Part shown: positions 22,896 through 54,351 of the stretch, one piece after another
Layout: the number at the start of each line of letters is the position of its first letter
How positions within the stretch are numbered: position 1 is the stretch's first letter
Source: Glutamicibacter mishrai
GTDB taxonomy: Bacteria; Actinomycetota; Actinomycetes; Actinomycetales; Micrococcaceae
Direction: 5' to 3'
NCBI RefSeq assembly: GCF_012221945.1
Contig: NZ_CP032549.1
Coordinates: 1,488,001 to 1,552,000, forward strand
Length of the DNA stretch: 64,000 nt
Position numbers and translations under genes: made by a program
Notes under the pieces: model-generated
The model's database searches: none
What the model saw: only the letters and a program-made list of their open reading frames with translations
Told to the model about the DNA's origin: nothing

Positions 22896-23633
22896 ATGCG
22901 AATCCTCATTGTGAATGTGAATACCACTGCGTCCATGACCAAGGCCATCGGCGACTCGGCCCGCGCGGTCGCTTCGCCCGGCACGGACATCATCGAGCTG
23001 ACTCCTGATTTCGGGGCGGACTCCTGCGAAGGCAATTTTGAAAGCTACCTCGCCGCGATGGCCGTGATGGATAAGGTGATCCGCTACCCGGAGCCCTTCG
23101 ACGCGGTCATCCAGGCCGGCTACGGCGAACATGGGCGTGAAGGCCTGCAGGAACTGCTGGATGTCCCGGTGGTGGACATTACCGAAGCCGCCGCTTCCAC
23201 CGCGCAATTCCTGGGGCACAAGTACTCCGTGGTGACAACCTTGGACCGCGCAGTCCCGCTGATCGAAGACCGGCTGAAGCTGGCCGGCCTGACCGACCGG
23301 CTCGCGTCGGTGCGAGCCAGCGGCTTGGGTGTCCTGGAACTGGAATCAGATCCGCAGCGGGCAGTGGCCGCCATCGTCGAGCAGTCCCGCATCGCGGTGG
23401 AGCAGGACAAGGCCGAGGTCATCTGCCTCGGCTGCGGCGGCATGGCCGAACTCGAAGAGCAGGTTCGGACTGCCACCGGCGTTCCGATCGTCGATGGCGT
23501 CCGGGCCGCGGTGACCATCGCCGAATCACTGGTGCGGATGGGCCTGAGCACCTCCAAGGTGCGCACTTACGCTCCCCCGCGCCCCAAGGTGCTGAGCGGT
23601 TGGCCGATCTCCGCCGAACTCATTACCAAGTGA
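22896..23633 (+). CDS. Hydantoin/allantoin racemase-like protein (Asp/Glu racemase superfamily)
   Basis: A 245-residue member of the aspartate/glutamate/hydantoin racemase superfamily. The start RILIVNVNTTASMTKAI corresponds to the family NPNxS region. The second catalytic cysteine is present in CLGCGGMAELEEQV (about residue 180). The first, normally Cys in an ACFGDPG-type motif, is replaced: the sequence reads QAGYGEHGREGL with Gly at that place. A two-base racemase mechanism is therefore doubtful; a one-base or different activity on a hydantoin ring is possible. GGAG stands four bases before the ATG. It shares the operon with the permease, so allantoin or a related hydantoin is the probable substrate. 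Confidence 0.78.
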   Translation: MRILIVNVNTTASMTKAIGDSARAVASPGTDIIELTPDFGADSCEGNFESYLAAMAVMDKVIRYPEPFDAVIQAGYGEHGREGLQELLDVPVVDITEAAASTAQFLGHKYSVVTTLDRAVPLIEDRLKLAGLTDRLASVRASGLGVLELESDPQRAVAAIVEQSRIAVEQDKAEVICLGCGGMAELEEQVRTATGVPIVDGVRAAVTIAESLVRMGLSTSKVRTYAPPRPKVLSGWPISAELITK

Positions 23634-23685
23634 ATGCGCAGGCGTATCCCAGTTAGTGCACAGACTGCGCGTTTAGAGTTATAAG

Positions 23686-23755
23686 TACCTCATGAAGGTG
23701 CGAGTGATGACAAATGTTTGGTCCCGATGCTTCGGCATCGGGACCAAACTTTTTT
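23686..23755 (+). ncRNA. Candidate small RNA A (shared head block plus terminator)
   Basis: A 25-base block ending GAAGGTGCGAGTGATGA (23686-23710) recurs at 52743-52768 with only a one-base insertion. Seven bases further on is a strong terminator: TTTGGTCCCGATGC, TTCG loop, complement, then CTTTTTT (23717-23755). ACCT/AGGT at the head can form a small stem with the indel in its loop. A TAGAGT -10-like hexamer ends six bases before the block. The next gene is on the opposite strand, so this is not a cis leader. It starts 52 bases after the racemase stop and could also be a 3'-UTR-derived RNA. Confidence 0.55.
23717..23755 (+). terminator. Strong intrinsic terminator
   Basis: A 14-bp stem with a UUCG-type tetraloop followed by CTTTTTT. 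It ends transcription of the candidate RNA and of the permease-racemase operon, and faces the end of the DUF1275 gene. Confidence 0.92.
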
Positions 23756-23765
23756 GCGCTACAGC

Positions 23766-24479
23766 TTAGCTGGCGTCAACCAAGTCCTCGGCCTTTTCGG
23801 CCTGCTGGCGCGAGCGTTCCCCGACCAGTGCCACGCCAATAGCCAGCACGCCGGTGAACAGAACACCCAAGCCGATATGCACCTGCAAGAAGGCGGCACC
23901 TGCGGCCGCGCCAATCAGGATCAGCGCCACCGCCAGCAGCCGGCGCTCCCAATATTTGCCGCTGCCTCCGCCCAGGGGCGAGTCGGCGGCGAGGCCAGTC
24001 AGGGTGGAGGTCACCACCACCGTGGTCACATCCTTGACCGCCAGATGGCGGGCGGTGGCTGCCTGGAGGCCCATGGCCGCTGCAATGAATCCGGTCACCG
24101 ACAAGGCGGCACCTTGGGAGACATGCTGCACTCCAGAGAACAGGGCAATAGAAGTCAGTGCCAGGCAGATGCCAACCACGGCAATCAGCACCGTGGTGCG
24201 TCGGCTCCAGCCTGCGGATTCCTGCTTGAGCACCCGTCCGGCAATCGCCGCACCGAGCACAAAACCGACCAGCGCCACGGATGGACCCAGGACCGGCAGT
24301 CCGTCGGCGCCCATGAGGGCCATGCCAAGAATCACGACATTGCCGGTCATGTTTCCGGTGAAGACCCGGTCCAGCCCCAGATAGCCGACAGCGTCGATAA
24401 TTCCTGTAGAGAAGGTCAGCACGAGCATCAAGATCAGATGCATTTTCGCGGGGTCGTGGGGCTTGAGGGCGTTCGGCAT
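23766..24479 (-). CDS. DUF1275 (YoaK-type) membrane protein
   Basis: Integral membrane protein of 237 residues with about six hydrophobic segments. The family signature is visible: LTFSTGIIDAVGYLGLDRVF followed by TGNMTGNVVILGMAL, and later GLQAATARHLAVKDVTTVVV with TSTLTGLAA. The function of DUF1275 proteins is not established; a transport role is often assumed from topology. ATG 24479 begins MPNALKPHDPAKMHL; the ATG at residue 13 is an alternative. It stands alone, convergent with candidate RNA A. Confidence 0.85.
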   Translation of the reverse strand: MPNALKPHDPAKMHLILMLVLTFSTGIIDAVGYLGLDRVFTGNMTGNVVILGMALMGADGLPVLGPSVALVGFVLGAAIAGRVLKQESAGWSRRTTVLIAVVGICLALTSIALFSGVQHVSQGAALSVTGFIAAAMGLQAATARHLAVKDVTTVVVTSTLTGLAADSPLGGGSGKYWERRLLAVALILIGAAAGAAFLQVHIGLGVLFTGVLAIGVALVGERSRQQAEKAEDLVDAS

Positions 24480-52658: not shown

Positions 52659-52742
52659 GTAGTCCCATTCCCGCACCGGATGTACTGCAACCCTGAAGCT
52701 TGTGCTCAGCCCGAGCATAGAAAGCGCGGGTAACGTAGTAAC

Positions 52743-52812
52743 TACCTCATTGAAGGTGCGAGTGATGATCGTTGAAATCCCCGCCGGCCCAGCCGGCGGG
52801 GATTTCACTTTA
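52743..52812 (+). ncRNA. Candidate small RNA B (same head block as at 23686, different terminator)
   Basis: The 26-base block 52743-52768 differs from 23686-23710 only by one inserted T; the last 17 bases, GAAGGTGCGAGTGATGA, are identical. Five bases later a strong hairpin follows: GAAATCCCCGCCGGC, loop CCA, complement (52774-52806), then ACTTTAACTT. A TAACGT hexamer ends six bases before the block, the same offset as in RNA A. Downstream on the other strand is a pseudogene, so no gene is led by this RNA. Total length, about 70 nt, equals that of RNA A. Confidence 0.55.
52774..52812 (+). terminator. Terminator after the second siderophore lipoprotein gene and RNA B
   Basis: A perfect 15-bp G/C-rich stem with a 3-base loop and a T-containing tail (ACTTTAACTT). 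It also protects against the convergent pseudogene region. Confidence 0.8.
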
Positions 52813-52832
52813 ACTTCGAGTTCAGCGCGGGC

Positions 52833-54351
<1,519 letters not shown>

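Follow-up and report, generated by a model that had tools for sequence, protein, structure and literature searches.

Two copies of a putative small RNA element in the window

The window is a stretch of 64,000 nt from the Glutamicibacter mishrai genome (C1:1488001-1552000 of 3,570,647 bases). It contains two copies of a short element, A and B, both on the plus strand. The exact 17-mer GAAGGTGCGAGTGATGA occurs at 23694-23710 and 52752-52768, and at up to three mismatches these two copies were its sole matches in the window. Shuffled windows averaged 0.23 matches, and 3 of 100 had two or more. The 17-mer matches confirm the earlier note, which reported that the block 23686-23710 recurs at 52743 with one inserted base; the extra base of copy B falls in the loop of a 5' mini-hairpin (CATGA vs CATTGA). 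The features of the two copies, with the evidence for each, were as follows:

23626..23663, plus strand: copy A, four C..AG boxes in 11-bp steps (CCAAG 23626-23630, CGCAG 23637-23641, CCCAG 23648-23652, CACAG 23659-23663), putative PhoP-type operator; sequence, column conservation, profile score
23674..23679, plus strand: copy A, -10 hexamer TAGAGT; 10 nt past the last box
23687..23755, plus strand: copy A, sRNA of about 69 nt; 5' end predicted from the position of the -10
23687..23699, plus strand: copy A, 5' mini-hairpin ACCT-CATGA-AGGT; arms conserved, pairs barely vary
23697..23710, plus strand: copy A, conserved core GGTGCGAGTGATGA; can pair with the mcdR leader over 15 contiguous bases, one of which precedes the core
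23717..23755, plus strand: copy A, intrinsic terminator with 14-bp stem, TTCG loop and T6; sequence, compensatory changes across copies
52694..52720, plus strand: copy B, boxes TGAAG 52694-52698 (weak), CTCAG 52705-52709 and CATAG 52716-52720; sequence, profile score
52731..52736, plus strand: copy B, -10 hexamer TAACGT; 10 nt past the last box
52744..52812, plus strand: copy B, sRNA of about 69 nt; 5' end inferred
52744..52757, plus strand: copy B, 5' mini-hairpin ACCT-CATTGA-AGGT; sequence, arm conservation
52755..52768, plus strand: copy B, conserved core GGTGCGAGTGATGA; pairing stretch from one base ahead of the core to 52772
52774..52811, plus strand: copy B, intrinsic terminator with 15-bp stem, CCA loop and short T-run; sequence, compensatory changes across copies

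A TAnnnT hexamer before each copy, terminators with unrelated stems and a total length of about 70 nt had all been noted before, and each was recovered here. The stems at 23717-23748 and 52774-52806 are unrelated in sequence, and each copy spans about 69 nt, counted from the ACC to the T-run.

Both copies lie 3' of a plus-strand gene and have minus-strand sequence beyond them. The next gene after copy A encodes a DUF1275 protein (23766-24479, minus strand). Copy B is followed by apparent minus-strand gene remnants (52812-53675), and the plus strand after it holds putative ORFs of 116 and 155 aa with TTG starts. Among the remnants, one of 133 aa (53274-53675) matches only positions 12-112 of the 734 of monomeric isocitrate dehydrogenase; nearer copy B, a minus-strand stretch that looks carbonic-anhydrase-like by eye contains in-frame stops. 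A riboswitch or leader, which had already been thought unlikely, was rejected because the positions of the genes around both copies do not fit such a role.

Copy number and distribution

The G. mishrai genome contains five exact copies of the motif, all on the plus strand, and the reversed control pattern gave none. Three of the five stand in tandem 25 kb past the window, at 1576990, 1577136 and 1577313, spanning less than 340 bp. A lack of further copies in related genomes had been proposed as grounds for abandoning the element. Such copies were found in each of 17 other Glutamicibacter genomes, at four to eight per genome (at most one mismatch). In 15 of these 17 genomes all copies were on one strand, with contig orientation taken as deposited and uncorrected.

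In total, 31 of the 58 genomes searched, G. mishrai included, contained the motif at no more than one mismatch: all 18 of the genus, 11 of 18 from the rest of the family, and 2 of 22 from the order. By per-genome counts, the exact 15-mer AGGTGCGAGTGATGA was present in 84 of 197 family genomes and 24 of 32 genera. These 15-mer counts are a lower bound because one genome without AGGTGCGAGTGATGA (G028, genus g12) has an sRNA of the same type, with AGGGTGCGAGTGATGA. Scanning the named genome collection for the exact pattern gave 113 stretches. Their titles were: Glutamicibacter, Paeniglutamicibacter, Arthrobacter, Micrococcus, Citricoccus, Zhihengliuella, Tersicoccus, Zafaria and other Micrococcaceae, plus two records under the name Kocuria polaris and a single Vibrio cholerae record. 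As the remaining titles are all Micrococcaceae, this last record, strain 35D (L171), which contains the sRNA element, may be a mixed or wrongly labelled assembly.

Structure and conservation of the RNA

Heads were located in 113 of 116 rows, and the three rows without one were dropped. After filtering for redundancy 55 promoters and 78 RNAs remained, and the 58 in-genus members of these RNAs were aligned. The hairpin arms ACCT/AGGT were present in 105 of the 113 located heads, with loops of 3-7 nt. Eleven of the 14 core columns were invariant among the 58 aligned copies and the other three were at least 90% conserved; the most conserved, near-invariant region was GGUGCGAGUGAUGA. The 62 nt past the core folded below -14 kcal/mol in all 93 in-genus copies. 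Nine of the 12 pairs of the consensus fold had changes on both sides, all nine in the terminator, whose stem sequence changes among copies yet stays paired. Covariation lends little support to the head hairpin, because its three pairs hardly vary and the changes are all in the terminator.

From this arrangement each copy looks like a stand-alone RNA gene with its own promoter, 5' hairpin, core and terminator, which together with the copies in relatives supports the initial description of a repeated, self-standing RNA. The earlier note had also pointed to ACCUC as complementary to Shine-Dalgarno sequences, as in trans-acting sRNAs. ACCUC turned out to be an arm of the small 5' hairpin, and pairing through it is not favoured because GGUGCGAGUGAUGA is the most conserved part and has a conserved complement elsewhere.

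Promoter and candidate regulator

Promoters were aligned on the -10 for 91 of 93 in-genus copies; the two without a TAnnnT -10 were left out. Counted from the first base of the -10, the C..AG boxes of the 91 copies begin at -48, -37, -26 and -15, in exact 11-bp steps, and the last box lies 10 nt upstream of the TAnnnT hexamer. The two nearest boxes were strongest, with C at -26 and A at -23 in 100% of copies; in the last box (-15) C was found in 99%, A in 96%, A in 100% and G in 97%. The last box was mostly CACAG or CATAG, the others were just C..AG, and the outermost (-48) was weak. No -35 consensus was found among the 91 promoters. In 82 of the 91 the -10 and the ACC are 7 nt apart.

The promoter profile scored 50.0 at copy A and 42.9 at copy B, and 3.6 at the best other place in the window. 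Across the 18 Glutamicibacter genomes a promoter model built from sequence only gave 93 matches. Eighty-nine adjoin a core, including two (G001 and G009) whose RNA has an altered core end, and four had no core. Two coreless matches, in close species, lie just upstream of a nicotinamidase-like gene (L241:1548 and L242:1587, minus strand); they are weak and were judged borderline. Additionally, two profile matches had no RNA head after them: L145:6903 (plus strand, 22.1) and L179:1797 (plus strand, 10.7).

M. tuberculosis PhoP is described as binding repeated TCACAGC units strictly 4 bp apart, and as able to stack on three or four of them (PMC4832192). The elements of such a promoter, namely TCACAGC-like units, a 4-bp spacer and an 11-bp step, were all found in the Glutamicibacter sequences, the step being exact. 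A similar 11-bp site is reported for C. glutamicum PhoR (PMC3353115) and the motif GTCACAgcg for MtrA (PMC2945938); because these sites resemble the boxes, the boxes indicate a class of regulator and not a protein.

The G. mishrai genome has 11 Trans_reg_C matches, 10 of them over the cut-off, and a receiver domain was recognized by eye in seven. Among the loci of these 11 matches and of the pstS-like gene, a clear box match was found solely before one regulator, hereafter the PhoP-like regulator (G000:C1:2274839-2275576, minus strand). The box score there was 15.3, the next score was 4.7, and the best place in the window outside the sRNAs scored 10.1. The single pstS-like gene of the genome had no Pho-type box match. 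All 18 genus genomes have the repeat CA[TC]AG-N6-CACAG, with free spacer letters, some 60 nt ahead of the PhoP-like regulator's start. The 18 loci examined from other genera all have such repeats before it as well, and 11 of them have three boxes. CAYAG-N6-CACAG occurred once in 464 kb of comparison DNA. The PhoP-like regulator is apparently autoregulated, judging by these repeats.

The nearest solved structure to the PhoP-like regulator is M. tuberculosis PhoP (222 bits). A second G. mishrai regulator is closer to that structure (289 bits) and is probably PhoP itself. The PhoP-like regulator (E<=1e-75) was present in 68 of the 84 genomes with the 15-mer vs 80 of the 113 without it, a weak association that speaks against it as sole activator. 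PhoP was found in 196 of 197 family genomes, so its presence is uninformative on a link to the sRNA. Altogether, the promoter architecture suggests a PhoP-type two-component regulator as the probable activator of the sRNA copies.

A candidate target in the probable mcdR leader

The core complement TCATCACTCGCACC, at no more than one mismatch, gave 144 matches in the 18 genomes: 96 sRNA copies and 48 other places. The reversed pattern gave 13 matches in the same genomes. Of these other places, 12 share a single leader, upstream of a putative MerR-type gene, and 36 are elsewhere. Twenty of the 48 places were fetched, comprising eight from the MerR-type leader and twelve of the 36 others, which were inspected.

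To MerR-family models the gene gave only matches below the cut-off, and its matches to the GlnR and Alr3614 structures were weak. Its gene order beside a DUF151-type gene suggests McdR/ResR (Rv1830). All 36 loci with data, three of them from Glutamicibacter, have a GACACG upstream of the gene. A WhiB2 box, cGACACGc, is described near the promoter of mcdR (PMC9040748). In mycobacteria, the product of mcdR is reported to be essential and to regulate cell division, DNA repair and the expression of ribosomal genes. The candidate target is thus probably mcdR, a name that rests on gene order and the GACACG box.

In the leader alignment the complement forms an island kept in all 18 Glutamicibacter genomes amid variable sequence, and it tolerates mainly G-U-compatible change. 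The five G. mishrai copies can form the following numbers of contiguous pairs with the leader, G-U included: 15 for copy A, 19 for copy B (four of them G-U), and 25, 15 and 18 for the tandem trio. In 17 of 18 genomes the best duplex was lower in energy than each of 60 shuffled leaders, the exception being G008; z values ran from -2.2 to -6.0. The shuffles came from a segment-swap procedure meant to keep dinucleotides, and energies were used only relative to them. In G. mishrai, G014, G005 and G016, by contrast, predictions put most of the site into pairs within the leader itself (unpaired 0.04-0.12), which counts against the proposed pairing.

Outside the genus, CACTCGCA was found at a similar place in 10 of 11 g44, 4 of 4 g12 and 3 of 3 g11 genomes with data. 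Full-core pairing in g44 scored low (11-18 of 28), and g18 has a gapped version of the site. Among the other-genus leaders compared, the site was absent in g42, g48 and g4, and it was unrecognizable in 10 sRNA-positive other-genus genomes. Because the site is not recognizable in sRNA-positive genera, mcdR cannot be the target across the whole family. A one-mismatch core complement also overlaps the start codon of a protein predicted to be secreted (MTRTSL...) in G. mishrai (C1:1222936) and G014; this site (L326:938-951, minus strand, and likewise in L330) is a possible second target.

Proposed mechanism and alternative readings

On this sequence evidence it is likely that the five copies in G. 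mishrai are sibling sRNAs of about 70 nt, activated by a PhoP-type regulator, that pair with the mcdR leader and probably lower its output. A PhoP-family regulator, either PhoP or the PhoP-like regulator at 2274839-2275576, would activate all copies together. The leader site at which the sRNAs would then pair lies some 35 nt downstream of the inferred transcription start and 74-81 nt ahead of the start codon. Pairing would lower mcdR output through mRNA stability or other early mRNA events, more likely than by covering the ribosome-binding site. Lowering is favoured somewhat over the opposite effect, although the sign is a guess. Release of the ribosome site was rejected as a mechanism, since predicted binding shifted its accessibility in no consistent direction among the 18 genomes.

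The same sRNAs and the same pairing might instead activate mcdR, the duplex protecting its mRNA or blocking an inhibitory structure or upstream frame. Such a sign would suit a pairing site so far from the ribosome-binding site, and predicted access to the ribosome site rises with the leader site taken in G014 (0.40 to 0.67) and G006 (0.21 to 0.47). However, access drops in G013 (0.78 to 0.23) and barely moves in G. mishrai (0.40 to 0.39), and the relevant precedent, Mcr7 on tatC, is described as repressing (PMC4038636). We consider activation a minority possibility, though one of some weight.

A smaller chance is given to an RNA that acts mainly on a protein or the ribosome, with the core as binding site, a sponge role for the copies and tandem cores, and an incidental match to mcdR. 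Conservation of the core in genera without the mcdR site, and its tandem repetition inside single RNAs of genera g4 and g15, are what such an RNA would lead one to expect; other mRNA targets would equally explain the wider conservation. The conserved complement in 18 of 18 Glutamicibacter leaders, with its mostly G-U-compatible change, argues instead for pairing with mcdR.

The location of both window copies between a plus-strand gene and minus-strand sequence would also suit mere boundary terminators or a mobile repeat with no RNA gene. This is very improbable, as the three tandem copies each have a promoter of their own, and promoter and core are conserved where the terminator sequence is variable. 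The tiny conserved peptide (MKVRVM...) that the earlier note offered as an alternative, with its frame preceded by ATG or TTG in both window copies, is scarcely credible, given that 33 of 113 heads have no ATG, GTG or TTG in that frame, 44 of 113 have no stop in it (about 120 nt scanned), and the frame runs into the variable terminator stem.

Few actinobacterial base-pairing sRNAs have both a known regulator and a known target. The sRNAs that probably pair with the mcdR leader would form a conserved multicopy family with a testable regulator and a testable target in a culturable, non-pathogenic genus. If the reading is true, a PhoP-type system would be tied to growth control through RNA, and the family would be a ready case of an sRNA core gaining and losing targets.

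Evolution of the core

Two genera, g4 and g15 (L437-L443), carry the 15-nt core twice in tandem within one RNA, which suggests that the core is a movable module. Six others, g5, g10, g46, g49, g52 and g53, have longer hairpins with C-run loops in place of the terminator. In these long forms (L287-L294 and L444-L446) one or two such hairpins follow the core and there is no short terminator. The tandem cores and long forms of other genera imply that the core is older than the mcdR pairing and that other targets are likely. A broader reading, which we hold tentatively and with rather more doubt than the pairing in Glutamicibacter, is a family-wide actinobacterial regulon. In it a PhoP-type system would set growth and translation capacity through pairing with the McdR leader, using a portable core of 14-15 nt with lineage-specific targets.

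Comparison with known systems

Several copies per genome, direct repeats of a regulator type and an own terminator, the marks of sibling sRNAs, were all found in the sequence. By analogy, the family resembles csRNA/CiaR, LhrC/LisR and Mcr7/PhoP in its likely working, and by sequence it is a member of none of them. The csRNA and LhrC families are both in Rfam. The streptococcal csRNAs are likewise described as near-identical, multicopy and partly tandem, controlled by a response regulator (CiaR) and pairing with mRNAs (PMC4507080, PMC4211561); they differ in phylum, regulator and sequence, and the Glutamicibacter sRNAs had no Rfam match. LhrC of Listeria is likewise reported as multicopy sRNAs induced through a two-component response regulator, LisR (PMC4132741, PMC5880928), but no sequence relation to the Glutamicibacter sRNAs was found and its targets are others.

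Mcr7 of M. tuberculosis is, as described, also an actinobacterial sRNA gene after a PhoP site that acts on an mRNA 5' end (PMC4038636). In contrast to the Glutamicibacter sRNAs of about 69 nt, with five copies in G. mishrai and a spread over Micrococcaceae, it is presented as a single gene of about 350 nt found in the M. tuberculosis complex only (PMC4038636). Mcr7 is also described as pairing over the tatC ribosome-binding site (PMC4038636), whereas the Glutamicibacter site is in the leader of another gene, 74-81 nt upstream of its start codon.

The actinobacterial 6C RNA, presumably RF01066, has stem-loops with runs of six or more C. The long forms of the sRNA family in other genera likewise have C-run hairpin loops, whereas the loops of the window copies are TTCG and CCA. 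No 6C RNA match was found in the window, nor at E<=1 in 13 other-genus and five in-genus loci.

Rfam at the gathering threshold gave no match to a known family in the window. At E<=1, the five in-genus loci gave two sub-threshold matches to other families, both on terminator hairpins, and the 13 other-genus loci gave sub-threshold matches at most; none was accepted. No description of the sRNA family was found in the open-access literature searched. Four sRNAs are named on plasmid sequences in Arthrobacter (PMC6696678). In a relative, a SAM-IV riboswitch lies close to an sRNA copy (L082:1805-1924, minus strand).
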